Shown here: piece by piece, positions 16,236 through 38,491 of the stretch
Layout: the number at the start of each line of letters is the position of its first letter
Position numbering within the stretch: the first letter of the stretch is position 1
From: an uncultured Muribaculaceae bacterium
GTDB taxonomy: Bacteria > Bacteroidota > Bacteroidia > Bacteroidales > Muribaculaceae
DNA: 53,910 bases
Direction of reading: 5' to 3'
Assembly: GCA_947625935.1 (NCBI GenBank)
Contig: CANQQE010000023.1
Span: 1-53,910, forward strand
Made by a program: the position numbers and the translations under genes
The notes under the pieces: model-generated
Told to the model about the DNA's origin: nothing
The model's database searches: none
What the model saw: only the letters and a program-made list of their open reading frames with translations

Positions 16236-17240
16236 ATGTGGCTGGATCAGGATCAGATTCAAAAGGATTTGGAACAGATTGCGACATCTGAGTTTATTCC
16301 GTGGGAGAAACTAAGGGAGAAAAGAGTACTTGTTACAGGCGCGACGGGCTTAATTGGTTATGCGACTGTGACGGGGTTGCTTTATACCAGCAGAAAAAGA
16401 GGGCTGAACACCAAGGTTTTGGCGCTTGTCAGGGACATGGAACGAGCGAAGGACCGTTTTTCCGAGTGGATCGGGCAGGATGATTTATTGTTCCTTGCCG
16501 GTAGCGTTGAAAATATGCCCTGTGTGGATGGAGATGTCGATTATATTATTCACGGTGCCAGTCAAACCACAAGTAAAGCGTTTGTGACGCAGGCGGTGGA
16601 GACGATCCGCACGGCTGTTATAGGGACCGATAATCTCTTAAGAATAGCGCAAGAGAAGCATAGTAGCGGGTTCCTCTATTTGTCCAGTATGGAGGTTTAT
16701 GGGCATCCGCAGAAAGGCCACAAAGTGAAAGAATCGGATGCGGGTGCCTTCGATCCACTGGATTTGCGAAATAGCTACCCGATCGGGAAGCAGCTTTGTG
16801 AAAATCTTTGCTGTGCGTATTCAAAAGAGTATATGGTCCCGGCGAAGATTATACGTCTGACGCAGACCTTTGGCGCAGGTGTAAACTATGATGATACCCG
16901 CGTGTTTGCCGAGTTTGGACGGTGTGTAAAAGAAAAGCGAGACATTGTCTTGAAAACAAAAGGCGAGACAGAACGTAGTTATCTGTATATTGCGGATGCT
17001 GTGACAGCTGTGCTTATTGTATTATTGAAAGGCGAAGCGGGGCAGGCTTATAATGCGGCTGATGAGAGAACCTATTGCTCCATCGCGGAGATGGCACGGC
17101 AGGTGGCAGAACTGGGAGGAATAAAGGTCCGCTTTGATCTGCAGGATGAAAAGAAGCTCGGGTTTCCGAGCGTTATCTATATGGATTTAGACACAGCGCT
17201 TCTCCGTGGCCTCGGATGGTTACCCGGGGGGGGGGTATAA
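16236..17240 (+). CDS. Extended SDR sugar/polyol enzyme, C-terminus truncated at a G10 tract
   Basis: NAD-dependent epimerase/dehydratase of 334 residues as read. The Rossmann motif is TGATGLIGYATVTG (residues ~34-47), catalytic Ser lies in YLSSMEVYG and YxxxK in NSYPIGKQLCE. The gene follows the cytidylyltransferase by 11 bases. Its last codons run into ten G residues (17226-17235), giving ...LGWLPGGGV and a stop. With eleven G the frame would continue as ITVLEMFRRMIGR and stop at 17276-17278, which fits the usual GWxP...LEE..RR.I ending of extended SDRs. The sequenced form is thus probably one slippage state with a shortened tail. Whether the short form is active is unknown. Confidence 0.87.
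   Translation: MWLDQDQIQKDLEQIATSEFIPWEKLREKRVLVTGATGLIGYATVTGLLYTSRKRGLNTKVLALVRDMERAKDRFSEWIGQDDLLFLAGSVENMPCVDGDVDYIIHGASQTTSKAFVTQAVETIRTAVIGTDNLLRIAQEKHSSGFLYLSSMEVYGHPQKGHKVKESDAGAFDPLDLRNSYPIGKQLCENLCCAYSKEYMVPAKIIRLTQTFGAGVNYDDTRVFAEFGRCVKEKRDIVLKTKGETERSYLYIADAVTAVLIVLLKGEAGQAYNAADERTYCSIAEMARQVAELGGIKVRFDLQDEKKLGFPSVIYMDLDTALLRGLGWLPGGGV
17226..17235. repeat. Poly-G tract, G10
   Basis: Ten consecutive G followed by TATAAC at the 3' end of the SDR gene. A length change of one base alters the C-terminus and moves the stop from 17240 to about 17265 (G9) or 17278 (G11). Confidence 0.95.
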
Positions 17241-17317
17241 CAGTGTTGGAGATGTTTAGAAGAATGATTGGACGCTGAAGACTTTTTTAGAAAACTAACG
17301 ATAAGAAGGAAAACAAG

Positions 17318-18523
17318 ATGCGTAAGGTAAAAAACGCACTTTTTAAGGCAATGGTGTTTATATATATTTTTTTCAAGGCGTGTGCTGCGAAGATCGTGAA
17401 AAAGTGCGGAGATGAAGTCCTTATTATTGAGTTTGGACATTTTGGTGATACTTTGGTTGACTCAGGCGCCATTATATTTATTAAGCAGTGGTATGAAAAA
17501 AGGGGAAAAACAGTTTCTCTTCTTTGCGCACCAGAGACTTGGAAAATGCTGAAACTTATCCCAGATTTGAGTCAGATGAATGTCTTACCATTTGCCTCCT
17601 ACAAGTTCGAGTATTCCTTGCAAAGTACTCGTGAATTACTGCGTAATATTGGGAAAAGATATTCCGATGTGATTTTACTATCCCCTATTTCGCCATATTA
17701 TTTTTTATTTACCGCTTGTATCCCCGGAAAAAAGAGCGCTAACCTGTATCCGGAATTTTTTTGCGGATGGAGAAAAATTTTCCTGTTCCTTTTCCGCCCG
17801 TTTTTTAAAAACATTTATATTTCCAAATCAGGGCAGAGCCGGTTTCACATGGTTGCAGAGTTTTTGAATGTAATTGGAACAAGAGGATATAGACCTCAAA
17901 TTACTTATTTGCCTGTCCAGGAAGTACATCTTGAGGAGGAGCCGCCCTATATTTCAATTATTGTGGATTCATCCAATCCCATTAGAAAGTGGCCAGTTGA
18001 AAATGTTGTTCAACTCATAGATTGGCTTCTGAATCATTATGATCACAGGATATACCTTCTTGGGGCAACACCTGATCTCACATTGACTTCACAACTTGAA
18101 GGACTGCCGAGTGAAAAAAAAGCAAGAATTAGAGATCTAGCTGGAAAGACAACGGTAGAAGAGTGGATCGAGAGAATACGCCGCAGTGAATTTATTATTG
18201 GTGTTGACAGCGGCGCGATTCACGTTGCTGCTTCCACGGGAACGCCAGCATTTTGCCTTGCAGGGAGGTGGTCGATTGATTCATTTGTTCCCTACCCATC
18301 AGATGTGGTTCATGATGGATTAACGGGACCCATCTGCGTCTTTCGAAAAGACGCGAATGATCTTCTCTGCAGGAACTGTGTGGGAAGAACGGGGCAATAC
18401 GGAAAAACGAATAAAAAGTGTTTTGATTTGTGCAGGCAAGGTAAGCCGTGCTTGTGTTTGCGGGAGCTTACAGCAGAGGATGTTATGAAGGCGATTTGTA
18501 GAGAAAGCAAAATGAAATTCTAA
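17318..18523 (+). CDS. Glycosyltransferase family 9 (heptosyltransferase-like)
   Basis: GT-B glycosyltransferase of 401 residues in the heptosyltransferase family. The C-terminal half carries SEFIIGVDSGAIHVAASTGT (about residues 288-307), the family's donor-binding signature, and the N-terminal half starts with LIIEFGHFGDTLVDSG, the ADP-heptose-type acceptor-domain opening. A Cys-rich tail (CRNCVGRTGQ...CFDLCRQGKPCLC, residues ~351-385) may bind metal and is unusual. The ADP-heptose synthesis genes four genes downstream make a heptose donor plausible. The gene is AT-rich. Confidence 0.88.
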   Translation: MRKVKNALFKAMVFIYIFFKACAAKIVKKCGDEVLIIEFGHFGDTLVDSGAIIFIKQWYEKRGKTVSLLCAPETWKMLKLIPDLSQMNVLPFASYKFEYSLQSTRELLRNIGKRYSDVILLSPISPYYFLFTACIPGKKSANLYPEFFCGWRKIFLFLFRPFFKNIYISKSGQSRFHMVAEFLNVIGTRGYRPQITYLPVQEVHLEEEPPYISIIVDSSNPIRKWPVENVVQLIDWLLNHYDHRIYLLGATPDLTLTSQLEGLPSEKKARIRDLAGKTTVEEWIERIRRSEFIIGVDSGAIHVAASTGTPAFCLAGRWSIDSFVPYPSDVVHDGLTGPICVFRKDANDLLCRNCVGRTGQYGKTNKKCFDLCRQGKPCLCLRELTAEDVMKAICRESKMKF

Positions 18524-18570
18524 GGTACTGAATGCGCTAGCCAGTATTTGTGTCGGGTGAGGATGTAGCC

Positions 18571-19797: not shown

Positions 19798-19827
19798 GTT
19801 TAAGAAAAAGGCAGGGAGGTCCGAAGA

Positions 19828-21255
19828 ATGTCAGTCAGGATAAACGGAAAAGATTATCTATGGAGTTATATTGGCATTTTCTTCTCCGTTGGATCTTCCG
19901 TTATCATTATGCCGTTTGTGCTCTATTTCCTGAGCGATGAGATGTATGGACTTTGGAGCGTGTTCCAAAGCATGTCCGTGATAACGACGCTGTTTGATTT
20001 CGGATTCAGTACGACGTTTGCAAGGAATATCAATTATTGCTGGAATGGAGCGGAAGAGCTGAAGACGACAGGCGTGCGGTTCGCGACAGACGGCGCTCCA
20101 AATTATCCGCTCATGAAGGTCACGATGAAGGCCTGCCAGTATGTGTTTCTGCTGCTTTCGGGAATAGCGCTGGCATGCCTCGCGTCATTTGGCACGCTGT
20201 ATGTGGCGCATATCACCCAGGATATTTCCGGACCTGAGCCGATGATCGCATGGGTGTTTTACGGCATCGCAATCTTTCTGAACCTTTACTACGGCTATTT
20301 CAACGCGTTTCTCTACGGAGTAGGTGCGGTCGCCGCGGTCAATCGGGCAACAGTTATTTCACGAATAGTCCAGATTTGCCTGACGATTTTACTGCTGCTA
20401 TCGGGGCTTGGGATTGTCGGGACTGCGATCGCTTACCTTGCGTATGGCTTTGTATTTCGGGTGCTGGGAAAATGGAGCTTTTTTCGATACAAGGGGATCG
20501 GGCAATCATTGCAGGCAACGGGTACAAATCCAACGAGAAGGGAAGTGTGGGAGAGCTTTCGCGTCGTATGGCACAACGCAAGTCGAGAGGGTATCGTAAC
20601 GCTGGCAAATTATCTGGCCAATCAAGCATGCACGATTATCTGCCCGCTCTTTTTGACGCTTGCGCAGACGGGCGTTTATTCTCTTGCGGTGCAGCTCGCG
20701 ACGGTGTTGGCAAATGTGGCAGGTGGAGTTTATTCCGCGAATCAACCTGTCTTGCAGTCGGCGTATATTTCCAATGACAAACCTAGAACGAAAAGAACAA
20801 TGTCCCTGATCGTCGTCTCATATGTGCTTCTGTATGTTGTTGGCTTGATTGCCGTTGTCACGGTTGGCTTACCCATTTTGCGCTTAATAAAGCCAAGTAC
20901 CACGCCGAGCATCGCGGTAATGCTCGGGGCGGGAATTTATCAATTTATATTAAAATTCAGAAACTGCTATACCTCTTATTTTTCGTGCACCAACAGGATC
21001 CCTTACGCGGGGTCGTTTATATGCTCTTCGGTTTTGTGTGTATGCTTGGCGCTTCTTTTCCTTGGGGGGGCGCGTTTGGGCATATGGGGTTTGCTGCTCG
21101 CGCAGATCGTGAGTCAAATTGTTTTTAACGTATGGTATTGGCCGAGGCTGGCGCACCGTGAAATGCAGCTTTCCGCGCCAGAGATGGTTCGATTGGGCGT
21201 TGACGAGATCGGAAAACTGTTACGAAATTTTACGAAAGGAACCACTTCGGAATGA
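19828..21255 (+). CDS. Polysaccharide flippase (Wzx/MATE-like)
   Basis: Membrane protein of 475 residues with 12-14 hydrophobic segments. Its start SYIGIFFSVGSSVIIMPFVL and early FGFSTTFARNINY segment are typical of polysaccharide biosynthesis exporters of the MOP superfamily. It should flip undecaprenyl-linked repeat units to the outer leaflet. GGGAGG precedes the ATG. A G7 run (21064-21070) lies in frame near residue 413, encoding Gly-Gly-Ala. The stop overlaps the hldE start (ATGA). Confidence 0.9.
   Translation: MSVRINGKDYLWSYIGIFFSVGSSVIIMPFVLYFLSDEMYGLWSVFQSMSVITTLFDFGFSTTFARNINYCWNGAEELKTTGVRFATDGAPNYPLMKVTMKACQYVFLLLSGIALACLASFGTLYVAHITQDISGPEPMIAWVFYGIAIFLNLYYGYFNAFLYGVGAVAAVNRATVISRIVQICLTILLLLSGLGIVGTAIAYLAYGFVFRVLGKWSFFRYKGIGQSLQATGTNPTRREVWESFRVVWHNASREGIVTLANYLANQACTIICPLFLTLAQTGVYSLAVQLATVLANVAGGVYSANQPVLQSAYISNDKPRTKRTMSLIVVSYVLLYVVGLIAVVTVGLPILRLIKPSTTPSIAVMLGAGIYQFILKFRNCYTSYFSCTNRIPYAGSFICSSVLCVCLALLFLGGARLGIWGLLLAQIVSQIVFNVWYWPRLAHREMQLSAPEMVRLGVDEIGKLLRNFTKGTTSE
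21064..21070. repeat. Short G7 run within the flippase gene
   Basis: Seven G in frame, followed by CGCG and not by TA as in the five longer tracts. A length change would truncate the last ~60 residues of the flippase. It is shorter than tracts known to slip often. Confidence 0.6.
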
Positions 21256-22757
21256 GCAAGAGAAATCGGGTCTTGATTATCGGAGACGCAATGATCGATA
21301 CGTATATTTACGGGAATGTGGAACGAGTCTCCCCGGAAGCGCCTGTCCCGGTCGTTTGCCCCAGCCGCAAAGTGAATTGTTTGGGCGGCGCCGCAAATGT
21401 CGCGCAAAACGCCGCTTCCTTGGGCGCTGAGGTGATGGCAGCTTTTGTTATTGGGGATGACGAGAACGGGCAAAAATTGCAAACCATGCTGGAGTCTTCT
21501 GAAATCGACTGCGCGTTTCTTTGCAAGGAATCAGAGCAGCGTACCATCCACAAAATGCGGATTGTGGGAAATAATCAACAGATTGCGAGAATTGATTGGC
21601 ACGACCGGTACAGCCTGTCAGAGCATACGGAGAGAAAGCTTTTTTCCGCGGTTTGCGCTGCCATGGAGAGAATCGATATTGTTGTTCTGAGTGATTATGG
21701 GAAAGGAACCTGTACAGAGCGGATTTGCCGGGATGTCATCAGGATCGCTCGGGATAACCACAAGCCAGTCATTGTGGATCCAAAAGGAACTTCTTGGGGA
21801 AAATACGCCGGCGCTTCCGTAATCACACCAAACCTGAAGGAAATGAATACCTTTAGCGGAGCGAAAGTCCCCAACATATCGGAGAAGATCGAAACGGCGT
21901 ATGGAGATATTTGTGGCACGATCCACATTGAAAATGTGCTGTTGACTAGGTCAGAATGTGGCATGACCCTCCTGCAAGAAGGAAAGGCCTCTCATTTTCC
22001 GGCAAAAGCACGAGAAGTGTTTGACGTGTCAGGGGCGGGAGATACTGTTGTCGCGGCGTTAGCTTCTGTACTGGATGTGAATATGGACAATCTCATAGAT
22101 AGTGTGGAGATCGCGAATATCGCGGCGGGGCTTGCGGTGGCGAAGCCCGGAACGGCAACGGTGACACTAGAAGAAGTGCAAAATGAGATCGCTCGCGCTG
22201 ACCGCGACGAAATCCGAGGGAAGATTTATACCGAGGCGGAATGGGAAAGGCTTCTACAGACGGTGCGTTTTTGGAGGATGACGGGCGACCGCATCGTGAC
22301 GACGAACGGATGTTTCGACATTCTGCACCGTGGGCATATTCGTCTTCTGGAGGAGGCACATAAGTTTGGCACAAGGCTGATTGTCGCGGTAAATTCCGAT
22401 GACTCCGTGAAGCGACTCAAGGGCGCGGCTCGTCCCATTAACGCGGAAGCGGATCGTGCGTATCTCGTAGCGGCGCTCAGCATGGTAGACGCGGTTGTCC
22501 TGTTCGATCCGCGTCGCGCTCCCTATACACTTTCAGACGCGCAGCGCGCGAGCATGAGCGTGAACGCGCAGGCCGCATGTGCCGAAGCGCCGATGCGGCT
22601 CATGGAGCTTTTGTCCCCGGACGTCCATGTCAAGGGCGGAGATTATAACCTATCGGACATTCCAGAGGCGATTTTCGCGAAAGAGATGAAATGTGTGCCG
22701 TTTGAAAACGGCTATTCCACGACGGGAACGATTCAGAAAACAAAAACTGCAAAATAA
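21252..22757 (+). CDS. hldE: Bifunctional heptose-phosphate kinase/adenylyltransferase
   Basis: Two-domain enzyme of 501 residues. The N-terminal PfkB-type kinase (about 1-315) opens VLIIGDAMIDTYIYG and has the anion-hole/catalytic motif GAGD (261-264); in the family it phosphorylates D-glycero-D-manno-heptose-7-phosphate at C1. The C-terminal adenylyltransferase (about 345-500) has TTNGCFDILHRGHIRLLEEA with the HxGH site at 359-362, and VKGGDYN near the end. Together they make ADP-heptose once the 7-phosphate is removed. It overlaps wzx by ATGA and is followed by gmhA and gmhB. The length is slightly above the ~475 of enterobacterial HldE, with about 25 extra residues around 415-440. Confidence 0.93.
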   Translation: MSKRNRVLIIGDAMIDTYIYGNVERVSPEAPVPVVCPSRKVNCLGGAANVAQNAASLGAEVMAAFVIGDDENGQKLQTMLESSEIDCAFLCKESEQRTIHKMRIVGNNQQIARIDWHDRYSLSEHTERKLFSAVCAAMERIDIVVLSDYGKGTCTERICRDVIRIARDNHKPVIVDPKGTSWGKYAGASVITPNLKEMNTFSGAKVPNISEKIETAYGDICGTIHIENVLLTRSECGMTLLQEGKASHFPAKAREVFDVSGAGDTVVAALASVLDVNMDNLIDSVEIANIAAGLAVAKPGTATVTLEEVQNEIARADRDEIRGKIYTEAEWERLLQTVRFWRMTGDRIVTTNGCFDILHRGHIRLLEEAHKFGTRLIVAVNSDDSVKRLKGAARPINAEADRAYLVAALSMVDAVVLFDPRRAPYTLSDAQRASMSVNAQAACAEAPMRLMELLSPDVHVKGGDYNLSDIPEAIFAKEMKCVPFENGYSTTGTIQKTKTAK

Positions 22758-22776
22758 ATTCAGGAGAAACCGCGTT

Positions 22777-23355
22777 ATGGGAAATATTCAGAAGATTCGG
22801 GAAGAAATACAAGCGTCGATCGACGCCAAAATCCAGGTGTTGCGCGACGAATCAGCCCTGCAAACCATCGCTGCCATTGCAGAGTGCGTTGCGGAAACCC
22901 TCCGAAACGGCGGGAAGCTGCTGGTTTGCGGAAATGGAGGCTCGGCGAGCGACGCGCTGCACATTGCGGGGGAGATTGTAGGCCGTTTTCAAAAGGAGCG
23001 GAAAGCGTATCACGCGGTGGCGCTGAACGCGGATGTGGCGACGATGACGGCGATCGCGAACGATTACGGATACGAACAGGTGTTTGCGCGTCAGGTGGAA
23101 GGCCTTATGAATCAAGGCGACGTCCTGCTGGGAATTTCGACCAGCGGGAATTCTGAAAATGTGGTTTGCGCGTTTCAGAAAGCCCATGATCTTGGCGGAA
23201 AAACGATCCTGCTTGCGGGCAGAGACGGTGGAAAGCTGAGATCTATGGCAGATTTGGCGTTTGTTGTGCCATGTCAGGTAACGGCGCATATTCAGGAGGT
23301 TCATGAGTGCGTATACCATATTCTCTGCGGTCTTGTGGAGGACGCACTGCTTTGA
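22777..23355 (+). CDS. gmhA: Sedoheptulose-7-phosphate isomerase
   Basis: SIS-domain isomerase of 192 residues, the usual GmhA length, converting sedoheptulose-7-phosphate to D-glycero-D-manno-heptose-7-phosphate in the cytoplasm. Motifs are LLVCGNGGSASDALHIAGE (about residues 47-65), LNADVATMTAIANDYGYEQVFARQ, GISTSGNSENVV and the C-terminal EVHECVYHILCGLVE with its metal/substrate His. ATG 22777 is chosen because AGGAGAA precedes it and the length then fits; the open frame extends upstream without a start signal. The stop overlaps the gmhB start. Confidence 0.93.
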   Translation: MGNIQKIREEIQASIDAKIQVLRDESALQTIAAIAECVAETLRNGGKLLVCGNGGSASDALHIAGEIVGRFQKERKAYHAVALNADVATMTAIANDYGYEQVFARQVEGLMNQGDVLLGISTSGNSENVVCAFQKAHDLGGKTILLAGRDGGKLRSMADLAFVVPCQVTAHIQEVHECVYHILCGLVEDALL

Positions 23356-23813: not shown

Positions 23814-23904
23814 GAATCTGGCGTAGAGGTTGGGCCCGCGGGGAATTTGACGGATTCCGATGCTCCGGACAGGATATGATTTGAGGAGAAGGAAACATAC
23901 GCTT

Positions 23905-25782: not shown

Positions 25783-25793
25783 GAGGTGTATAA

Positions 25794-26303: not shown

Positions 26304-26370
26304 GCGCCGGAGCGAAATAACTTATTGCGAAAAAACAACCGACTTGCTTTGAGAAAGGAAAGGATAGCAG

Positions 26371-28458: not shown

Positions 28459-28573
28459 ATTTACGGTTTATGATTGATCACGCTTAAAGCAGACGCTTCC
28501 AGCTTGTGATATGATGAAGCAAAAAGGGAGATAGATTAATTCAGAGAAACATTTCTGAAAGGTGAATTAGAAT

Positions 28574-30612
28574 ATGAACAAAAGAATAGAGGTAAAAGAG
28601 AAAATTACGGTTTTCGCTTTACTTATCTTGCTGCTTGGCTTAATCGGTTATATGGAATGGTTCAATTTTGCCAAGCTCATTCCCCAAGGCCTCGATTCCG
28701 ACTTGGTCAATGAAATTAAATATAGACAGCTGAGCTGGGAGCAAAAGTCTTTGTTTCCAGAAGGGTTTTACCACAGTCAGGAGCTTTTTTCCAGCCGCCC
28801 GGTTTTGCTGTATTGGCTGTTTTATGCGATTACAAATGATTTTATGTTTGCGTACCAATTAGAAAACGGAATCATGTTTCTGATGCTTCTTGCTTCTTTG
28901 TGGTTTCTGATGGGCGCGTTGACAAAGAATCTTCAAACAAAGCTCTTGACCTTATGTATATTTATTGGCTGGATGCCGACTGTGGGCGCGTATGTGCTGT
29001 TTTTCCCGTCTAATGCTTATGTTCTTTTTGCGATAGCCACTTTTTTATCACTTGGTTTTAGATTTCGCATGATACGGCAAGAAAAGTGGCTCAAATCCTA
29101 TCGGGGGGGGTATCTACTTATCTATCAATCCTTTGTATGTGCGGAATTGCGGCCTATTTAGGGTATTCCAGTCCAAGGCTACTACTGACCCTGTATTTCC
29201 CGCTTATTTGTATTGATTTACTAAAGCTCTTTTCCGCCTATTTGCGCGCGCACACCCTCCCCATAAAAGTTCTGCGGGTGCTTCTTTTGGACCTTGTTTT
29301 GTTGGGAATAAGCGCGGTAATGTATATGTATGGGGTGCGCAATTACGGCGACTGTTTTTATCCGGTGCCTGCGAATATTGCCGGCGTCTCAAGTTGGTTC
29401 AATTGGACGGTTCTCTCCACAGTATTTCGTGAGTTGTTGGAGGCGCTGGGGATACGCGGCGGAGGAAAGTTCGCTTCTTCAGCAGGACTTTCTATCATTG
29501 TCAGTGCGGCTTTCGTGCTTCTCGTTCTTCTTTCCACCGGATGGGGAATCTATCAGCATAAGGAGAGGAAAGAAAAGGGCACAGAGGAAATAGTTCCATT
29601 TGCGCTAATAGTGACAATGATCGTTGTTTTGCTAAGAGTTACGGTGATGCAGTCGGGGGAGTCCAGCCCAAGATACTACTATTGTACGACGCTTCTTTTC
29701 CCGATTGTCTGCTCCTTGGCGATCGAAGAATGGTCTACGGGAGAGCATGGAAAACAGTACAGTCTGCCGTTTGGGTTGGTTTCTCTTGCGGCCTTGATCA
29801 TATTTTCTCTTACATGGCGAATTTATTTTTCAACGCCAGTCTCAACCCGTTTGCAAGTCGCGGAATATATGAAAGAGAATGGGTACGGCTACGTTACAGC
29901 GTCATATTGGAATGCGGGGGTTTTGAGAGGATATACCAATGGAGCGATTGAGGCACAACGCTTGGATTATCTAGGCAATACTCCAAGATACTGGATGACC
30001 GATTCCAGGTTGTATACCGACGAGCGCCTCGGAGAGCCGGAGATTCTTCTCCTCACAGACGCCGAAGAAAAAGCCATTTTTGACAAAAAGAACGGCGTGT
30101 ACTGGATGCTTGAGACGGAAGCGGAGAAGGTTCAAGAAATAGATATATATAATTTGTACGCGCTTCATGAAAACCCGTTTACGCTGCTGCCGAAGGTGGA
30201 AGCGCGACGGGCAAAGGAAATCCTTGACGAGCCATTCATCATAGAATTTGATTATCCGGGTAACGGCGCTCTTCTCTATGCGAATGGAACTGTAGATCCA
30301 GAAGGCAGTTTTGTTTCGGATGGAACCTGCGGATTTGTCGCAACCGCGTCCCATTCTGACTTGGAGCCAGGAACATACAATTTGATTTTGCACTTCAATG
30401 TAAAACCATATGAGGGGATTGAGCAAGGTGTGTTTGATGTTCTTGTTGATAATTCGGGGTATCGTTCAGTCCGAATTCGGAAATACGCTTCTTCAGCCAG
30501 GATTGAAGATGTTGTCATTTCAAAGAACCAAACCTTGACCTTACGGATTTGGGTGCCCGATGGGATGAAAATTGAAATCAAATCCATCGAATATCAACGG
30601 AAGAACACATGA
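28574..30612 (+). pseudogene. GtrC-like membrane glycosyltransferase paralog 2, split by a G8 tract (probable phase-off allele)
   Basis: Reads as two frames. From ATG 28574 the first 195 codons match paralog 1 (LDSDLVNEIKYRQLSW, FSSRPVLLYWLFYAI) up to KSYRGG, then end at 29161 after the frame is lost. The homology resumes at once in the next frame (VSTYLSILCMCGIAAYLGYS) and runs to 30612 with TASYWNAGVLRGYTNG and LLLTDAEEKAIFD. The break is exactly at eight G (29103-29110). Nine G (or six) would join both parts into a 679-residue protein close to the 695 of paralog 1. Nothing else in the gene is damaged, so this looks like a reversible slippage state and not decay. A sequencing error in the homopolymer is the main alternative. 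Confidence 0.82.
29103..29110. repeat. Poly-G tract, G8 (inside a coding frame)
   Basis: Eight G followed by TATC inside the second GT-C paralog. At G8 the frame closes 17 codons later; G9 or G6 restores the full protein. Confidence 0.95.
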
Positions 30613-30646
30613 CAAATTAAGAATGGATCGAGTGAAAGGAACAATC

Positions 30647-31612
30647 ATGGAAAAGAAAAAAATCAGCGTTACCATTCCCTGCTACGGGGAAGAGAAAAGT
30701 GTCCGGCAGATGTACGACCGCCTGACGGCCGTGTTCGCGGAGAAGCTGCCCGAGTACGACTATGAGATCATCTATGTGGATGATCATTCTCCTGACAATA
30801 CGGAGGAGGAGATCCGCAAATTGTGCGCGGTAGACAAACGTGTAAAAGCCGTTTTCAACGCGCGTAATTTTGGATTTACAAGGAATGTTTTTGCTTCGCT
30901 TCTGTATGGGGACGGAGACGCGACATTTATGCTGTTTGGCGATTTGCAGGATCCGCCGGAGATGCTTCCGCAAATGGTCGCAGAGTGGGAACAGGGCAAG
31001 AAGGTGGTTGTCGGACAAAAAGTGAAGAGCGAAGAGTCAAAGTTTATGTATGCCATGCGTTCGCTGTACTATTTTGTCATTGAAAAGCTGTCTAGCTCTA
31101 AGCAGGTGGCACACTTTAATGGCTTTGGCCTGTATGATCGGGCTTTTATCGATGTTCTCCGACAGTTGGATGATCCGGCTCCATATTTAAAGGGGATTGT
31201 CTCTGAATTCGCGATGGATCTGTGTGTTCTGCCTTATGAGCAGGCCAAGAGCATGCGGGGGAAATCGGGTGAAAATTTCTTTAAAAATTACGATATTGCC
31301 ATGTTGGGCATCACTTCGTACACGAAGATTCTTATGCGGATTGCCACATTCCTCGGTGCGGGGCTGGGAATTTTCAGTGTTATTTTGGCGCTGTTTGTCT
31401 TAATCAGCAAGCTTCTGAATTGGAACGCGTACCCCTACGGTACGGCCTCCATCCTGATCGGTGTGTTTTTCATCGGTGCGGTGCAGCTGTTCTTCATGGG
31501 TATTTTAGGAGAGTACATACTGAGCATTAACACACGCTCTATGCGGCGTCCGCTTGTCGTTGTAGGTGAAAAGATCAACTTTGACAAGGAAAAAGAGACA
31601 GAACATGACTGA
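30647..31612 (+). CDS. GtrB/DPM-like glycosyltransferase family 2
   Basis: GT2 enzyme of 321 residues. It begins ISVTIPCYGEEKSVRQMYD and has the metal-binding acidic pair Asp45-Asp46 in YVDDHSPDNTEE, the second acidic motif in MFGDLQDPPEML, and two C-terminal membrane segments (about 230-300). This is the architecture of bactoprenol-phosphate glucosyltransferases (GtrB, ArnC), which make undecaprenyl-phosphate sugars for use outside the membrane. ATG 30647 has GAAAGGA at good spacing; the frame is open further upstream. With GtrA (39660) and the GT-C proteins it would complete a Gtr-type side-branch system. The stop overlaps the next start. Confidence 0.9.
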   Translation: MEKKKISVTIPCYGEEKSVRQMYDRLTAVFAEKLPEYDYEIIYVDDHSPDNTEEEIRKLCAVDKRVKAVFNARNFGFTRNVFASLLYGDGDATFMLFGDLQDPPEMLPQMVAEWEQGKKVVVGQKVKSEESKFMYAMRSLYYFVIEKLSSSKQVAHFNGFGLYDRAFIDVLRQLDDPAPYLKGIVSEFAMDLCVLPYEQAKSMRGKSGENFFKNYDIAMLGITSYTKILMRIATFLGAGLGIFSVILALFVLISKLLNWNAYPYGTASILIGVFFIGAVQLFFMGILGEYILSINTRSMRRPLVVVGEKINFDKEKETEHD

Positions 31613-32936
31613 GAATAGAATGTCCCTTCATACAACTGAAGCGCTCCTTGACTGGATCCGCTCCCGCAATGCCACGATCCATGTGCGGATCGACAAAACG
31701 ACGCTGGACCAATGCGCGCCTTGGTATTATGACGGCGAATCGGGCACGGTCCGCAATCCCGTGGGGAGCTTCTTCCAGATCGCGGGGCTTCGCGTGACAG
31801 AAGGGGAAAGGACACTTCTGGAGCAGCCCATCCTCCTACAGAACGAGATCGGCTATCTCGGCATCATCCGCAAGCGGATTTGCGGCGAGATGCACTATCT
31901 CATGCAGGCAAAGATCGAACCGGGGAACATCAATAAAATCCAGCTTTCCCCGACGATCCAGGCGACAAAGTCGAACTTCACGCAAAAGCACGGCGGCGCG
32001 AAACCCGCCTATCTCGACTATTTTATCCATGCGTCGAACTATAGGATCGTCGTCGACCAGATCCAGTCGGAGCAGTCGTCCCGGTTTCTCGGCAAGCGCA
32101 ACCGGAACATCATCATCGAACTCGCCGAAAATGAGGATATCGAGGTGCTGCCGTCGCACAGGTGGATGACGATGCCGCAGATCAAAGCGCTTATGCGTGA
32201 AGACAACCTCGTCAACATGGATACACGGACAGTGCTGTCCTGCCTGCCACTGGAGGAGCATCTCAGCGAGTTTACGGACGCCGCGTTCCTGCGCTCCGTG
32301 CTGGGCGGGGGAAGGGACAACCTTTCGGAGATCTATCAGTATATCAACAATTACAAAATGTTCGACGAGACTCAACTGCGGCTCGTCCCGCTGTTTTCCC
32401 TCGAAAACTGGGAGACGCGAAACGGGGAATTTGTCTGCAAGGGGCCGTACAGCTTTAAGGTCGTGTTCTGCGACATTGAGATCGAGGGGCGGGAGGTCCG
32501 GCATTGGCGCCAGCCGCTGTTTGAGGCGGCGGGGATTGCGACGTTTGGTTTGCTGACCCGGGTTTACCATGGCGTTCGGGAATTTCTCGTCCGCGCGACG
32601 CCGGAGGTCGGGTGCTTTGACAAGATCGAGCTGGGGCCGTCGGTGCAGCGGGAGTATATCCACGACGACGCGAAGGACACCGCGGTGGATGCACTGTTTG
32701 ACGCGCGCCTGGAGACCGGGAAGGGCGTCAAGTTCAACACGCTGCTTTCCGAGGAGGGCGGCCGGTTCTACCATGAGCAGAACCGAAACGTCGTGGTGGA
32801 AATTGAGCCGGACGAGCTGCCCGCACCCCCGGAAGGGTATTTCTGGACGGACTACAAGACGCTTGGCACTCTCGTGAAGGTCAACAACTGCCTGAATATC
32901 CAGCTTAGAAATCTTTTGTCGGTATTGGAGTGGTGA
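31605..32936 (+). CDS. NDP-hexose 2,3-dehydratase
   Basis: Enzyme of 443 residues made of two related halves, as in EvaA/TylX3-type NDP-hexose 2,3-dehydratases. The N half holds GSFFQIAGLRVTEGER, LEQPILLQNEIGYLGII, LMQAKIEPGNINKIQLSPTI; the C half repeats this as FKVVFCDIEIEGREVRHW, WRQPLFEAAGIATFGLL, LVRATPEVG and IELGPSVQ. In antibiotic pathways it removes water from dTDP-4-keto-6-deoxyglucose, starting 2-deoxygenation. Its gene overlaps the GT2 end by eight bases, and one base after its stop comes a Gfo/Idh oxidoreductase, the enzyme type that performs the next step. Unusual in a surface-polysaccharide locus. Confidence 0.9.
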   Translation: MTENRMSLHTTEALLDWIRSRNATIHVRIDKTTLDQCAPWYYDGESGTVRNPVGSFFQIAGLRVTEGERTLLEQPILLQNEIGYLGIIRKRICGEMHYLMQAKIEPGNINKIQLSPTIQATKSNFTQKHGGAKPAYLDYFIHASNYRIVVDQIQSEQSSRFLGKRNRNIIIELAENEDIEVLPSHRWMTMPQIKALMREDNLVNMDTRTVLSCLPLEEHLSEFTDAAFLRSVLGGGRDNLSEIYQYINNYKMFDETQLRLVPLFSLENWETRNGEFVCKGPYSFKVVFCDIEIEGREVRHWRQPLFEAAGIATFGLLTRVYHGVREFLVRATPEVGCFDKIELGPSVQREYIHDDAKDTAVDALFDARLETGKGVKFNTLLSEEGGRFYHEQNRNVVVEIEPDELPAPPEGYFWTDYKTLGTLVKVNNCLNIQLRNLLSVLEW

Positions 32937-32937
32937 T

Positions 32938-33948
32938 ATGAAAAAAGTAAGAATCGGCATCATTTGTCCCTCTGAGATCGCGTTCCGGCGCTTCCTGCCC
33001 GCGATTCAAAAGTGTGACTGCGCCGAATATATCGGTGTGGCCCACGCCGACGAAAAAGAGTGGTTTGGGGACCGGACGCCGGACCCGGCGGTGATCGCCG
33101 GCGAGGCGAAGAAAGCCCAGTCCTTTGCCGACGTCTGCGGCGGCACGATCTTCGACAGTTATGAAGCGCTCCTGTCCTCGCCGGATGTGGATGCGGTCTA
33201 TCTGCCGCTGCCGCCGGCGCTGCATTTCAGGTGGGCGAAGGCCGCGCTGGAGCACGGCAAACACATTTTCCTCGAAAAGCCCTCTACTACCTCCGAGAAA
33301 GATACGAAAGAGTTGATCGATCTCGCCGGAGCGAAGGGCCTTGCGGTTCATGAGAACTATATGTTCGCGTTCCACAAACAGATCGGCGAGATACAGGACA
33401 TCGTCAAGAGCGGCAGAATCGGAAACGTGCGGCTGTACCGCATCGCGTTCGGGTTCCCGCAGCGCGCGAAGAACGACTTCCGCTACAACAAGGCCCTGGG
33501 CGGCGGCGCGCTTCTGGACTGCGGCGGATATACGCTGAAATTGGCGGCCATGCTGCTGGGCGAGACGGCGCGGGTGGTCTATTCCCGCCTCAACGACACC
33601 CCCGATTTTGACGTGGACATCTACGGCAGTGCGGCGATGGTGAACGACGGGGGCGTGACGGCGCAGATCGCGTTCGGCATGGACAACAGCTACAAGTGCG
33701 AGCTGGAGGTCTGGGGGAGCAAGGGCTTTTTGAGAACAGGTCGAATTTTGACCGCGCCGGACGGTTTCGAGCCCACTGCGGAGATCACAATCGGCAACGA
33801 GACCGAGACCGTAAAGCTTAGCGCGGACGACACGTTCAGAAAGTCTATAGAGCATTTCTGTAAGTGTGTCGCGGACGAAACGGCAAGAAAAATAAACTAT
33901 GAGACAATCGCGCGGCAGGCGGAGCTTGTCGATGCGGTTAGAAATTAA
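32938..33948 (+). CDS. Gfo/Idh/MocA oxidoreductase, probable NDP-sugar 3-ketoreductase
   Basis: NAD(P)-dependent oxidoreductase of 336 residues. The Rossmann start is KVRIGIICPSEIAFRRFLPA (Gly-rich loop atypical, CPS in place of GxG). The FLEKPSTTSEKD segment (Glu113-Lys114-Pro115) is the family's EKP catalytic motif, and GGGALLDCGGYTLKLA is the conserved mid-domain segment. Relatives such as KijD10 reduce the 3-keto group left by the 2,3-dehydratase, giving dTDP-4-keto-2,6-dideoxyhexose. The immediate linkage to the dehydratase gene makes that role likely here. Confidence 0.87.
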   Translation: MKKVRIGIICPSEIAFRRFLPAIQKCDCAEYIGVAHADEKEWFGDRTPDPAVIAGEAKKAQSFADVCGGTIFDSYEALLSSPDVDAVYLPLPPALHFRWAKAALEHGKHIFLEKPSTTSEKDTKELIDLAGAKGLAVHENYMFAFHKQIGEIQDIVKSGRIGNVRLYRIAFGFPQRAKNDFRYNKALGGGALLDCGGYTLKLAAMLLGETARVVYSRLNDTPDFDVDIYGSAAMVNDGGVTAQIAFGMDNSYKCELEVWGSKGFLRTGRILTAPDGFEPTAEITIGNETETVKLSADDTFRKSIEHFCKCVADETARKINYETIARQAELVDAVRN

Positions 33949-33984
33949 TAGAAAAGAAGAAAACTTGGGATGGAGGTGAATGTG

Positions 33985-35016
33985 ATGAAAGTTACGGTTA
34001 TTGGTGCGAACAGTTATATCGCGCGAAATCTTCTTGCCGTTTTGAAAAGAAGGTTCCCAAACGTACTGCTCCGGCTCTACGACTGCGCCGATACGCACGC
34101 AGACGGAGAGCAGGCATATGAAAAAGTGCAGATTCTGGATAGAGCGTCTGTTTCAAATATAGACCTGAAAGCAGATGTTGTTTTTATGTTCGTCGGGAAG
34201 ACCGGTTCAGCCGCAGGCTTTGACGACTATGATACATTTATTGATATCAATGAGCGCGCCCTGCTTCATGTCCTCGAAGCTTATAGGAAACAGGAATCTA
34301 AAGCAAAGATCGTTTTTCCTTCGACAAGGTTAGTCTATAAAGGCAGCAGCATGCCCTTGAAAGAGACGGACGAAAAGGAGTTTCGAACCATTTACTCGAT
34401 CAATAAATTTGCCTGTGAACAATATTTGGAGCAGTTCAGCCGCGTATACGGTGTGCGGTATTGCGTTTTCAGGATCTGTGTTCCTTATGGATCTCTGATC
34501 CCGGGGGCGTCTTCTTACGGGACGATAGAGTTCATGCGGAACAGAGCGATGAAGGGTGAGAATATCCGACTGTACGGAAACGGAGAAGTGAGGCGCACGT
34601 TTACGCATATTGAGGATCTGTGCAACAACTTGATCGATGGGGCAGTTTGTACGCTCTGCGAGAATGACTTTTACAATATCGGAGGCGAGGATTGGAGCCT
34701 TCTGGAAGTTGCCGAACGGATTGCCGCACGGTATGGCGTTGAAGTGGAGCATGTGGAATACCCGAGGGTAGAGGCATGCATTGAATCAGGGAACACAGTT
34801 TTCGATGCTTCCAAGCTCGCCGCGTTAGGAATTTATCCGCGCCACAAGATCGAAGAATGGATTAATTCGCAGGGCAGCGAAGAAGATGAAAAAATGAACC
34901 GGGGGGGGGTACATGATTCTGTAAACCGGTTCTTCTTTGCAAGACAATTTGTGCCACGAAACAAAAATCAGACTTTCATCAATGTTCATTTCAGCCCGCA
35001 CCGACGTGCTGCATGA
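33985..35016 (+). CDS. Extended SDR, probable dTDP-4-keto sugar reductase, with a G9 tract near its end
   Basis: SDR of 343 residues from ATG 33985, which has GGAGGTG before it; an upstream in-frame ATG lies within that site. Rossmann motif GANSYIARNLLA, Ser in VFPSTRLVYKG, YxxxK in TIYSINKFACE. The normal fold ends near KIEEWINSQ; then nine G (34901-34909) lead into a 36-residue tail (VHDSVNRFFFARQFVPRNKN...) that looks untypical. With G10 the frame stops at once (GGT ACA TGA), with G8 after TAC ATG ATT CTG. In the present state translation ends 36 bases before rmlC. Likely a C4 reductase of the dideoxyhexose pathway; specificity unknown. Confidence 0.82.
   Translation: MKVTVIGANSYIARNLLAVLKRRFPNVLLRLYDCADTHADGEQAYEKVQILDRASVSNIDLKADVVFMFVGKTGSAAGFDDYDTFIDINERALLHVLEAYRKQESKAKIVFPSTRLVYKGSSMPLKETDEKEFRTIYSINKFACEQYLEQFSRVYGVRYCVFRICVPYGSLIPGASSYGTIEFMRNRAMKGENIRLYGNGEVRRTFTHIEDLCNNLIDGAVCTLCENDFYNIGGEDWSLLEVAERIAARYGVEVEHVEYPRVEACIESGNTVFDASKLAALGIYPRHKIEEWINSQGSEEDEKMNRGGVHDSVNRFFFARQFVPRNKNQTFINVHFSPHRRAA
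34901..34909. repeat. Poly-G tract, G9
   Basis: Nine G followed by TACATGA after the conserved end of the SDR fold. Length decides whether translation stops there or runs on to 35016. Confidence 0.95.
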
Positions 35017-35052
35017 CTGGATAAAAACAATTTGATGAAAGGAAAATGATAT

Positions 35053-35628
35053 ATGGCACAGCTGAAAATCACAGAGCTTGCGCTTCCGGGCGTGAAGATC
35101 ATCGAACCGACGTACTTCGAGGACTACCGCGGGTATTACTGCGAGACATATTCCTCCCGCACCATGGCGCAGTACGGCTTGAATCCGGTTTTCATCCAAG
35201 ACAACCACAGCCTTTCCCTGAAAAAGGGGATCATCCGAGGCATCCATTTCCAAAACAACCCGCATCCGCAGCTCAAGCTGGTGCGCTGCACGAGGGGACG
35301 TGTAATGGACTACGCGGTTGATCTGCGGCGGGATTCACCCACATTCAAGAAATGGGTGGCCGTGGAGCTTTCCGCGGAGAATCGCAAGCAGATCTGGATC
35401 CCCTCCGGCTTCGGTCATGCGTTCATTACGCTGGAGGACGACTGCGAGGTTCAGTATAAGGTGGACGACTGGTATTATCCCGAACTCGACCGAGCCATCG
35501 CTTGGAACGATCCGGAGATCGGAATCGACTGGGGCACAGACAGCCCGGTGATTTCCGTGAAAGATACGAAAGCGCCGACGCTTGCGGAAAGTGACGTAAA
35601 CTTCACGATGGAGGAGAATCCTGCATGA
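35053..35628 (+). CDS. rmlC: dTDP-4-keto-6-deoxyhexose 3,5-epimerase
   Basis: Cupin-fold epimerase of 191 residues, the normal RmlC length. It epimerises C3 and/or C5 of dTDP-4-keto-6-deoxyglucose or its deoxy derivatives. The catalytic His lies in GIIRGIHFQNNPHPQLKLV. Other family segments are GRVMDYAVDLRRDSPTFKKW, WIPSGFGHAFITLEDDCE and VQYKVDDWYYPELD with the catalytic Tyr region. AAAGGA precedes the ATG. No rmlD is found, so in this locus the product probably feeds the SDRs around it and makes an L-configured deoxysugar other than, or besides, rhamnose. Confidence 0.93.
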   Translation: MAQLKITELALPGVKIIEPTYFEDYRGYYCETYSSRTMAQYGLNPVFIQDNHSLSLKKGIIRGIHFQNNPHPQLKLVRCTRGRVMDYAVDLRRDSPTFKKWVAVELSAENRKQIWIPSGFGHAFITLEDDCEVQYKVDDWYYPELDRAIAWNDPEIGIDWGTDSPVISVKDTKAPTLAESDVNFTMEENPA

Positions 35629-36605
35629 AAACAGCTATTGTTACAGGCGCGGGCGGGTTCATCGGGCGTAAGCTTACGGAAAGCCTCGCTCAAAAATATG
35701 TAGTTTACGCGATCGTTTACAATGAAAGGGAAAAAGAAGGTTTACCAACTTCAAATGATGTGATTCCAGTAACCGGTGATCTCAATAATTGGGAAGATTT
35801 AGCCGAGAAATTTCCGAAGGGACAACCGTTCGATCTGTTTTATCATCTGGCTTGGGGAGGTATTTCCTCCGCGGCTTATAAAGATATGGATATACAGGAG
35901 AACAATATTACTATGTCAATCTGCGCGGCGCGGCTTGCTTGCCGTGTTGGCTGCCAAAAGTTTATTTTTGCTGGGACAAATCAGGAATACTTGGTTTCTC
36001 CTTCCTCGATAGACGGAACGATCTGTAACGCAAGCGTATACGGGATCTGCAAAAAGAGCGCCCGGGAACTTTGTCAGGTCCTTCTGCGGGACGCCATGAA
36101 GTTTAACGCGACCGCCTTTACCAATGTCTTTGGCCCGGGAGATTTCTCCAAAAGAACCGCGAATTTGTTCATTGGAAAACTGCTGCGTGGAGAAGCTCTT
36201 GATCTTATTGAAGGTAATCACGAGTACGACTGGACATTTGTTGATGATGCTGTGGCGGGATTGATTGCTGTGGGCGAAAAAGGCATAAACGGAAAGCAGT
36301 ACTATATCGGTTCACGTAAACTCCCTACATTCCGCCAGATTCTCACAGAGGTGCGGAACACGATCTGTCCGGACGCGGAACTTCGTTTTGGGAAATATAC
36401 GGACAACACCTACACGGATTACTCGAAGTTTGACCTTAATGCGCTATATGATGACACCGGCTTTGAATGCGGATCAGACTTTAAAGAGAGCATTCTGAAA
36501 ACGGCAAATTGGCTTCAATCGCAGACCCCGAAAAACATGGTGGGGGGGGTAACTGAATATAGAGTTATCCTGTTGGCTGCCGCGCGAAAGGCGGTGGCCG
36601 CATGA
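35625..36605 (+). CDS. Tandem SDR 1 with G8 tract; coupled by ATGA to SDR 2
   Basis: Extended SDR of 326 residues starting in an ATGA overlap with rmlC. N-terminus MKTAIVTGAGGFIGRKLTE, YxxxK in SVYGICKKSARE, binding-type segments FNATAFTNVFGPG and YDWTFVDDAV. The enzyme fold ends at ILKTANWLQSQTPKN, the place where SDR 3 simply stops. Here eight G (36542-36549) let translation run 21 codons further and end in a TGA overlapping the SDR 2 start (ATGA). G7 or G9 would stop the ribosome about 55 bases earlier, so tract length may control expression of SDR 2 more than activity of SDR 1. Probably reduces or epimerises a dTDP-keto-deoxysugar. Confidence 0.85.
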   Translation: MKTAIVTGAGGFIGRKLTESLAQKYVVYAIVYNEREKEGLPTSNDVIPVTGDLNNWEDLAEKFPKGQPFDLFYHLAWGGISSAAYKDMDIQENNITMSICAARLACRVGCQKFIFAGTNQEYLVSPSSIDGTICNASVYGICKKSARELCQVLLRDAMKFNATAFTNVFGPGDFSKRTANLFIGKLLRGEALDLIEGNHEYDWTFVDDAVAGLIAVGEKGINGKQYYIGSRKLPTFRQILTEVRNTICPDAELRFGKYTDNTYTDYSKFDLNALYDDTGFECGSDFKESILKTANWLQSQTPKNMVGGVTEYRVILLAAARKAVAA

Positions 36606-36659
36606 AAACTGCCATTGTCACAGGCGCGGGCGGGTTCATCGGCGGCGCGCTGACCGAGC
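36453..36659 (+). repeat. ~207-bp direct repeat, copy A (SDR 1 end to SDR 2 start)
   Basis: Nearly identical to 37418-37625 and includes the G8 tract. The offset is 965 bp before the tract and 966 bp after it, because the tracts differ by one G. Recombination between copies would delete or duplicate SDR 2 exactly. Confidence 0.88.
36542..36549. repeat. Poly-G tract, G8
   Basis: Eight G followed by TAACTGAA at the 3' end of SDR 1. At G8 the TAA/TGA stops downstream are out of frame and translation reaches the SDR 2 start. Confidence 0.95.
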
Positions 36660-37522
36660 GGCTTCTCCAAGAGGGATATGCCGTTTATGGGGTGGACATC
36701 AATGAGGCGGCTTTGCGCAGATTCGCGGGACAGCCCTCTTTTTTCCCGGTCTGTGAAGATCTGGAAAACCCGGAGATTGCCTCCCGTCTGCCGCAAAGAG
36801 CGGATGCCATTTTTCACCTTGCCCTGAAAGGCACAATGGGCGCCAAGGACCGGGGAGACGCGGACCTTCAAATTAGCAATATTTCTTCGGCGGTCCACTT
36901 TTGCGGCACGGTGATCGATCGGTGTGAGCGCTTTATCTTTTGCAGCTCCAGCTATGAGTTTTTGCGGGACAAAAAGGACCAGCGCATTCCCATGTGCTTC
37001 TATGGCGCCGCGAAGCGCGCCGCGGCGGATATGTGCGCAAACATTGCGTATCACGGCGGCAAGGAATACAATAAAGTCATTTTTACAAACACATTTGGCG
37101 TGGGGGACCGCTCAAACAAGGCGGTCAACACGATCATTCGCCGAATGCTGCACCGGGAACCTCTGACACTGGTGGAAGGCAGCGACCGCAACGACTGGAC
37201 CTACATCGATGACACCGTCGAGGGGCTGATGGCGGTGCTGGAAAAGGGAAAGCCGTTTCAGACCTATTATATCGGCCATCGGGAGATCACGACGTTCCGC
37301 GAGAAAATCACTGTGATGCGGGATGTGCTTTGCCCGGAGATGAATCTCGTCTTTGGGACAATGCCGGAAGATTCCTGTGTTCATTATGACGAGATCGACC
37401 TTGACGCGCTGTACCGTGACACCGGCTTTGAATGCAGATCAGATTTTAGAGAGAGCATTCTGAAAACGGCAAATTGGCTTCAATCGCAGACCCCGAAAAA
37501 TACGGTGGGGGGGGGTAACTGA
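36602..37522 (+). CDS. Tandem SDR 2 with G9 tract; uncoupled from SDR 3 in this state
   Basis: Extended SDR of 306 residues. N-terminus MKTAIVTGAGGFIGGALTE is identical to SDR 3. Ser is in IFCSSSYEFLR, YxxxK in MCFYGAAKRAAAD, and NDWTYIDDTVEGL is the substrate-side motif. It starts in the ATGA overlap with SDR 1. Nine G (37507-37515) place a TGA directly after VGGGN, so translation ends 45 bases before the SDR 3 start. With G8 it would read on, as SDR 1 does, and end in an ATGA overlap at 37568. Its middle differs from SDR 1 and SDR 3, so the three probably have different stereochemical outcomes. Confidence 0.86.
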   Translation: MKTAIVTGAGGFIGGALTERLLQEGYAVYGVDINEAALRRFAGQPSFFPVCEDLENPEIASRLPQRADAIFHLALKGTMGAKDRGDADLQISNISSAVHFCGTVIDRCERFIFCSSSYEFLRDKKDQRIPMCFYGAAKRAAADMCANIAYHGGKEYNKVIFTNTFGVGDRSNKAVNTIIRRMLHREPLTLVEGSDRNDWTYIDDTVEGLMAVLEKGKPFQTYYIGHREITTFREKITVMRDVLCPEMNLVFGTMPEDSCVHYDEIDLDALYRDTGFECRSDFRESILKTANWLQSQTPKNTVGGGN

Positions 37523-38479: not shown

Positions 38480-38491
38480 GGAGAAAATAAC

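Follow-up and report, generated by a model that had tools for sequence, protein, structure and literature searches.

Poly-G tracts in a Clostridia-like surface-polysaccharide locus as candidate length-dependent switches of translational coupling between sugar-modifying genes

Introduction

In the current work, we describe five poly-G tracts in a surface-polysaccharide locus on contig CANQQE010000023.1 (positions 1 to 53,910 of assembly GCA_947625935.1, recorded as an uncultured Muribaculaceae bacterium); throughout, "the window" denotes this whole stretch of 53,910 nt. Our preferred reading, to which we give a probability of roughly 60%, is that the tracts change length by slippage and that, at two junctions between consecutive short-chain dehydrogenase/reductase (SDR) genes, tract length determines whether translation of one gene is coupled to that of the next. 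This reading draws on the sequence and its reading frames, on the recurrence of the design in relatives, and on the presence of both frame states among homologues, together with predicted hairpins.

A first-pass annotation, made from the letters alone, had proposed that slippage at these tracts generates surface variants through the independent switching of one GT-C gene and four SDR genes. Phase variation by slippage is still the best reading, and the tract at 29103 fits it, but the four SDR tracts do not look like plain on/off switches of their enzymes.

Five G-runs and two SDR junctions

All five runs were found at the reported places, each followed by TA and each on the coding strand:

17226 to 17235, plus strand: G10 tract at the 3' end of an SDR gene
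29103 to 29110, plus strand: G8 tract, candidate in-gene frame switch
34901 to 34909, plus strand: G9 tract, candidate C-terminal tail switch
36542 to 36549, plus strand: G8 tract at the junction of SDR A and SDR B
37507 to 37515, plus strand: G9 tract at the junction of SDR B and SDR C

No SDR domain is interrupted by a tract; because all four SDR-associated tracts lie 3' of the domain, they are not plain on/off switches of their own enzyme, as had been claimed. SDR A and SDR B extend about five residues beyond the end of SDR C before the tract is reached, and the chain is laid out as follows:

35625 to 36605, plus strand: SDR A, NAD-dependent epimerase/dehydratase family, in the putative coupled state as assembled (G8)
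36602 to 37522, plus strand: SDR B, in the putative uncoupled state as assembled (G9)
37568 to 38479, plus strand: SDR C, last of the chain, with no tract and without the tail of A and B
36550 to 36601, plus strand: junction module A-B, comprising TA, a small predicted hairpin and the read-through tail VTEYRVILLAAARKAVAA
37516 to 37567, plus strand: second junction module (B-C), before SDR C
36575 to 36599, plus strand: predicted hairpin that covers the SDR B ribosome-binding site
37541 to 37565, plus strand: predicted hairpin before SDR C

At 36542, the present frame reaches +56 through a 17-codon tail and stops in an ATGA that overlaps the SDR B start (+52), while the other two frames stop at +7 and +3. 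At 37507, the present frame stops at +7, with the SDR C start at +52, and the open frame, unused now, ends at +56 over that start. The start regions of SDR B and SDR C (60 nt; predicted minimum free energy (MFE) -23.9 and -26.2) are the most structured of the window starts examined, compared with -12.1 for SDR A and -3.3 to -6.9 for RmlC, UDP-galactopyranose mutase (GLF), GT9 and two GT-C-labelled starts. The tracts at 36542 and 37507 thus appear, from their frames and predicted structures, to switch the next SDR gene by translational coupling. GLF, which follows SDR C, is probably independent of the chain, since its start region is weakly structured (MFE -4.2) and it has its own AAGGAG.

Judged by their reading frames, the tracts at 17226 and 34901 change a C-terminal tail only. 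Neither has a frame that ends on the next start, and the start regions that follow are weakly structured: that of a GT9 family gene at 17318 (MFE -4.3) past the first, where a short tail alone changes, and that of RmlC at 35053 (MFE -3.3) past the second, where the present frame adds 34 codons ending ..HRRAA and the other frames stop at +7 and +15. The long-frame tails at 34901 and at locus L092 9279 have diverged, yet both end Ala-Ala (..HRRAA and ..HLLAA).

Under the coupling reading, one tract-length class (modulo 3) would let ribosomes read through the 17-codon tail and open the predicted hairpin that hides the ribosome-binding site of the next SDR, and their stop in the ATGA at the next start would lead to its translation. 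In the other two classes, ribosomes would stop 3-7 nt past the tract, leaving the hairpin closed and the next SDR off or low. Because the SDRs form a chain, the first uncoupled junction would limit the dTDP-sugar enzymes made; as assembled, A to B would be coupled (G8) and B to C not (G9). Since SDR C could be coupled only when SDR B is translated, the junction switches would not be independent, contrary to the original proposal. We infer slippage in living cells, the dependence of the next gene on read-through, and an effect on the glycan. If this is true, mutable repeats would determine the point in an operon up to which translation continues, beyond single-gene switching, and a population would gain graded sets of sugar-modifying enzymes.

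The tract at 29103 would be the same kind of tract acting as an ordinary in-gene switch, off at present:

28574 to 30612, plus strand: membrane protein gene split by the G8 tract at 29103

The open reading frame (ORF) at 28574-29161 stops soon past the G8, and about 500 codons up to 30612 are open in a different frame. Compared separately, the N-terminal piece matches residues 22-182 (50%) and the C-terminal piece residues 195-694 (43%) of an intact paralogue at 26371-28458. The gene looks like a classical frame switch that is off as assembled, because the part past the tract is open in another frame. The claim that one GT-C gene is switched by its tract therefore holds for the split, which is as an in-gene switch would leave it, although the GT-C label lacks Pfam support: no Pfam family was found for either the split gene or its paralogue.

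The window contains no further run of eight or more G (G8+), as had been noted for its flanks, and no C run of at least seven; its single G7, at 21064 and followed by CG, likewise lies within the glycan locus. Dinucleotide shuffles of the window gave 2.78 ± 1.66 G8+ runs, and 13 of 100 reached at least five, which means that the number by itself is not significant against window composition; as composition alone yields 2.8 such runs, the count was dropped as evidence. Two other features are unusual. One is the TA after all five runs: it follows 4.7-6.2% of G3-G5 runs in the window, two of eight G6 and the G7 in zero of one case. The other is that a natural genome can carry far fewer such runs, so that beside a real relative (G070, below) the count of five does stand out.

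Within the window the runs are confined to one locus, and the same is nearly true of G070, the closest relative found, where two of four G8+ runs in about 2.0 Mb lie in the matching SDR locus. In the assembly that nominally holds the window (G000), a scan of all 3.69 Mb gave 31 runs, of which five are within the window; it was rejected as a background for run density because several of its other contigs look like Bacteroidota while the window is Clostridia-like. Within the window, Rfam at gathering scores and a tRNA search returned nothing, and no reverse transcriptase family indicative of a diversity-generating retroelement was present among the 40 ORFs scanned with Pfam.

Recurrence of the junction design in relatives

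The comparison covered 144 distinct G8+ contexts from the window, loci L073-L120 and loci of related metagenome-assembled genomes (MAGs; L142-L231), the last located by a TA-containing pattern. Among the 126 tracts followed by TA, 51 were in-gene, 28 at junctions and 47 in other positions. A candidate junction was defined, whatever the next dinucleotide, as a tract that is not in-gene, with an upstream frame of at least 180 codons and an ATG 30-130 nt past the tract; for the null, the spacer was shuffled and the real ATG context retained. In 24 of the 36 candidates, both window SDR junctions included, one frame ends exactly on the next start, a number reached in 0 of 1000 shuffles (9.3 ± 2.4 expected; a separate null of 500 shuffles gave 9.2 ± 2.5, with 18 the largest). 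Of these coupled junctions, 13 are in the coupled frame now and 11 are not, and in the two non-coupled frames 44 of 48 stops fall at most 18 nt from the tract (median 8). When junctions now in the coupled frame were left out, 11 of 23 still had such a frame against 4.9 expected (2 of 1000 shuffles), which we regard as moderate sequence evidence for retention of a frame that is not in use.

The junction starts also stand out in predicted structure. Across 26 junction starts (the 24 coupled ones plus two with GTG starts), mean MFE was -20.2, versus -7.5 for 81 other intra-operon starts from the same loci (p = 3e-13); after correction for composition, the shuffle z was -2.29 versus +0.25 (p = 1e-11), and values below -2 were obtained at 14 of 26 junction starts and 3 of 81 others.

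A number of results weigh against the coupling reading or narrow what can be drawn from these figures. All 24 coupled junctions fall in one homologous family of 27, and none of the nine candidates outside it is coupled. With one junction per cluster, the coupled number falls to 7 of 16 versus 3.1 expected (15 of 1000 shuffles), and in the set not coupled now to only 4 of 13 (161 of 1000 shuffles), although these per-cluster figures use a gapped global identity that is too lax (it merged 139 of 144 tracts); the junction family, like the flank clusters described below, was defined by BLAST instead. With regard to structure, z exceeds -2 at 12 of the 26 junction starts, GC content is higher at junction starts (0.52 vs 0.41), the unpaired probability of the Shine-Dalgarno sequence (0.38 vs 0.55, p = 9e-4) gives a smaller contrast than MFE, and start-codon accessibility does not differ significantly between the 26 junction and 81 other starts (p = 0.11). 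As to instability, the G070 match of the 34901 tract has the same length, G9, and MutS1 and MutL were found in 20/20 and 19/20 of the related genomes searched (G069 left out); mismatch-repair loss therefore does not explain instability there and was rejected as a cause. Taken from sequence comparison, the junction architecture is real, but it is one evolutionary family.

The same junctions permit an explanation at the level of the protein, in which tract length would alter only the C-terminal tail of the upstream SDR, and hence its stability or partners, with the next SDR starting independently. The tail-only behavior of 17226 and 34901 and their weakly structured next starts speak for it, as does the finding that tails end Ala-Ala at 15 of 26 junctions, compared with 25 of 1593 ORFs of at least 150 aa (12 among the 244 of these that end in ATGA); such ends, we presume, recall C-terminal degrons. 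An effect on tails alone, however, does not need the exact ATGA ending or the strong predicted junction hairpins. The junctions also share ancestry, and Ala-Ala could arise simply from coding through a GC-rich hairpin; we hold this explanation to be unlikely.

Alternatively, tract and hairpin could be by-products, without a regulatory role, of a recombination module that duplicates and shuffles SDR genes. The two junction copies in the window are nearly identical (the flanks of the two tracts share 91% and 98% identity) whereas DNA identity between the SDR genes is 53-58% (58% for A vs B), and the chain of the sister genome G070 has two SDRs versus three in the window; both points speak for such a module. 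It leaves unexplained the early stops in the two other frames, nor does it account for similar runs within unrelated genes, and we judge it very improbable.

An artefact of assembly or sequencing, peculiar to a single metagenome project, also has to be considered, given that the 22 coupled junctions outside the window, as well as the genomes richest in runs, are all in MAGs named Lapin (presumably French for rabbit). Yet Lapin genomes differ sharply in the share of runs followed by TA (35/51 in G065, 1/19 in G068 and 1/14 in G061), and the runs have open frames to either side, in keeping with a biological origin; an artefact thus seems highly improbable.

Tract length variation and in-gene tracts

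Near-identical contexts with different tract lengths were found in several places, all of them comparisons between paralogues and different species rather than within one clone: the window junctions at 36542 and 37507 carry G8 and G9 despite their closely similar flanks, two L215 sites carry G9 and G10 with downstream flanks 96% identical, and L089 vs L205, as well as sites within L187, also differ by one G. Other close pairs (the L206 sites, the L084 pair, and L144 with L189) have equal lengths. Overall, tracts range from 8 to 12, with a single G15 and a single G17. Among the 51 in-gene TA tracts, 19 are in the long frame and 32 are not, a share near the third expected of free switching. These numbers bear on programmed ribosomal or transcriptional slippage, by which several frames would be produced at fixed ratios from one DNA with no DNA switching. 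The window junction G-runs do directly precede a predicted hairpin, in the manner of a slippery site, but a fixed recoding site should keep one length, and with 32 of 51 in-gene tracts out of the long frame this mechanism is very unlikely.

Pfam scans of 30 of the 51 in-gene downstream pieces gave hits in 19, including acyltransferase 3, GT4, FkbM, FkbH, DNA methylase, EAL and surface domains. Below the curated cut-off are two matches to PMT_2 and several other in-gene hits. At L211 3051 (genome G076), a long N6 DNA methylase (N6_Mtase and Eco57I families) carries a G9 close to its start and is a possible phase-variable restriction-modification gene. In G065, seven small genes (L176 5012, L179 5000, L180 8579 and 5014, and L187 3068, 2796 and 2564) carry a G-run seven or eight codons past the start; one begins MSEEKKFQ, followed by VTPEQEDTLKEVAGG, and the open frames end Gly-Gly. 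We take these frames to resemble leaders of ribosomally synthesized and post-translationally modified peptides (RiPPs) or bacteriocins, and expression of RiPP- or bacteriocin-like leaders in G065 may be phase-variable.

A shared flank signature

Besides TA, the runs share an upstream bias consisting of A at -11 to -8, T at -6 and -5, and C at -1. When the window and L073-L120 are taken together, 34 of 44 G8+ runs are followed by TA; in L073-L120 and in the fetched MAG stretches it follows only about 5-9% of G3-G6 runs, and 0/10 and 4/12 of G7 runs, respectively. Since the search pattern contained TA, TA counts in L142-L231 are biased; with one tract per BLAST cluster (94 clusters), the upstream bias persists and TA is present in 83, including 12 of 16 among the contexts collected without the pattern. 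For in-gene tracts alone (48 clusters), A reaches 0.49 over -11 to -8 (background 0.29), more than in any other of the 53 position windows compared. The signature occurs in all three codon phases (78 tracts), and the phase of TA in in-gene tracts corresponds to V in 24, G in 14 and Y in 13.

Two simple sources of TA were tried and rejected. As a stop signal it is insufficient, with only 58 of 126 being TAA or TAG and TA occurring in all three phases; as a promoter -10 box, a promoter-spacer consensus check flagged 5 of 126 TA tracts at the thresholds used, and the five tracts of the window lie in coding sequence. We could not account for the flank signature by stops, promoters or protein sequence. 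Promoter-like placements were observed individually: at L156 1511 and L159 1499, the G-run fills the 18-base spacer between TTGACA and TATAAT or TATTAT, which fits a promoter-spacer type of switch. In G000, the runs at L033 10001 (G10) and L035 10001 (G8) stand directly before a TAATTTG motif, which we take to resemble the Bacteroides -7 promoter box, and adjoin genes for 1840- and 1458-aa proteins with signal-like starts; these are perhaps promoter-spacer switches.

The signature is unevenly distributed among genomes. Genome-wide TA hits per G8+ run were high in G065 (35/51), G076 (29/40), G063 (11/18), G074 (10/14), G071 (8/12), G066 (8/9), G073 (9/18), G064 (5/7) and G072 (19/42), and low in G080 (1/45), G068 (1/19), G061 (1/14), G067 (3/16), G062 (1/7), G075 (2/7), G070 (1/4), G079 (3/9) and G078 (0/2), with none in G081; G077 gave 4 TA hits to 3 runs. 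G069 was excluded from this comparison, its 31 TA hits for 35 runs being accompanied by 26 control hits, and several hits lying at contig ends. In its contigs C3, C8, C10, C20, C24 and C31, the G8-TA motif lies 34-62 bases from the contig start, which may point to a dispersed repeat at which assembly broke off. A broad spread was also rejected: among 200 genomes of the family of G065 only G065 is rich (35; next 6), and among 398 genomes of the phylum of G076 only G076 (20; others at most 2).

A bolder extension is that the A-rich block about one helical turn upstream, together with C, the G-run and TA, marks the site of a dedicated activity, or a strongly slip-prone context, that makes and changes G-runs wherever such a site appears and is shared by gut Clostridia of different record labels; a slip in an SDR tract would then both add an Ala-Ala degron-like tail and open the next enzyme, making the array a stepping switch. 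We regard this as speculative and quite unlikely as a whole. With their shared DNA flanks, the runs make it possible to test whether a sequence context, or an enzyme, determines the sites at which G-runs arise.

Origin of the DNA

The Clostridia-like label given in the first-pass annotation was borne out by the gene content of the window (a LytTR regulator and a SPOB/GHKL kinase) and by its relatives. A search for the SDRs in 60 related genomes gave only weak matches, the best with 36% identity (E 1e-12). Matches among named contigs comprised 69 loci, 35 of them in Lapin MAGs, labelled mostly as Oscillospiraceae and other Clostridia, with a few Bacilli, Bacteroidales and others. The other G000 contigs mentioned above appear Bacteroidota on our reading of their gene content. 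The sequence comparisons point to gut Clostridia as the source of the window, whose contig is probably misbinned within its assembly; the Bacteroidales label of L098 and similar loci may reflect misbinning too.

G070 carries a purine nucleoside phosphorylase 98% identical to that of the window and matches its right flank with 90-95% DNA identity. The fetched G070 stretches (L262-L265) match the window at 31.7-34.8, 37.0-42.0 and 43.8-53.9 kb, and contain no match to most of 0.2-31.6 kb, which may lie elsewhere in G070. With the dTDP-sugar end and right flank matching and positions 200-31600 mostly not, the polysaccharide locus has possibly been swapped.

Relation to known systems

Poly-G phase variation is a known kind of switching, familiar from the poly-G/C contingency loci of Campylobacter and Neisseria. 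As in those loci, G-runs of 8-12 occur here in glycosyltransferases, acyltransferases, a DNA methylase and surface proteins, with frame switching, and relatives of the window supply promoter-spacer examples (L156 and L159). Homopolymers of at least eight lie within genes of surface-related function in the window and in relatives, and tract length and frame differ between close copies. Unlike those loci, the present ones belong to gut Clostridia, to which poly-G phase variation would be extended, and tracts past the end of the enzyme domain would act on the next gene. The A-rich, C and TA flanks are common to the runs described here; the comparison of flanks was confined to these runs.

Translational coupling, for its part, is classically recognized by an ATGA overlap, a hidden ribosome-binding site and an upstream ORF running through the hairpin. 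The junctions share the overlap (the upstream stop meets the next start in one frame at the 24 junctions), a strong hairpin predicted at the next start, which would hold its ribosome-binding site in structure, and an upstream ORF through it. Ordinary coupling is fixed, whereas here a mutable tract would set whether coupling happens.

A known gut case concerns the sortase-dependent pilus of Bifidobacterium breve, in which, according to the accessible text, a G-tract lies between two ORF pieces of a pilin gene and replication slippage was studied by maximum-depth sequencing (PMC9187656). Both cases involve a gut commensal with a G-tract, but the B. breve system, as described in that text, joins pieces within a gene, one pilin subunit per cluster, with no chain and no hairpin-coupled next gene (PMC9187656). 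PhasomeIt, in the part of its description available to us, assigns repeat tracts to ORFs or promoters, seeking first an ORF that contains the repeat and otherwise adding 200 bp to distances from an ORF 3' end (PMC6321876); presumably, a junction tract would then be credited to the ORF before it instead of the gene after it.

No precedent for a poly-G switch of chain coupling was found in the accessible portions of the literature, including PMC3711429, PMC9187656, PMC11868660 and PMC6321876, with thin coverage of subscription journals. The word "coupling" is absent from a 2025 review, and for gut Clostridia the accessible review text discusses DNA inversion. The statement that the strategy is not known for this lineage holds in that no precedent was recognized there, but poly-G switching is well known elsewhere.

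Gene content of the glycan locus

The remaining features of the locus are listed below:

16236 to 17240, plus strand: SDR gene with the G10 tract at its 3' end
31566 to 41955, plus strand: dTDP-deoxysugar cluster around the SDR chain
33970 to 35016, plus strand: SDR 0, with the G9 tract at 34901
35053 to 35628, plus strand: RmlC-type dTDP-sugar 3,5-epimerase (PF00908; TIGR01221 above cut-off)
38492 to 39670, plus strand: UDP-galactopyranose mutase (GLF)

The cluster at 31566-41955 encodes an NDP-hexose 2,3-dehydratase, Gfo/Idh, SDR 0, RmlC, SDR A-C, GLF, RmlA and RmlB. RmlA, RmlB and RmlC score above curated NCBIfam cut-offs, and the SDRs give weak matches to many NCBIfam models. Elsewhere in the glycan locus, a pyruvate-formate-lyase-like glycyl radical enzyme and a radical SAM gene are found at 11266-14075, and positions 21252-23355 carry a PfkB and cytidylyltransferase fusion plus a SIS gene, which we take to resemble genes for heptose-phosphate synthesis (HldE and GmhA).

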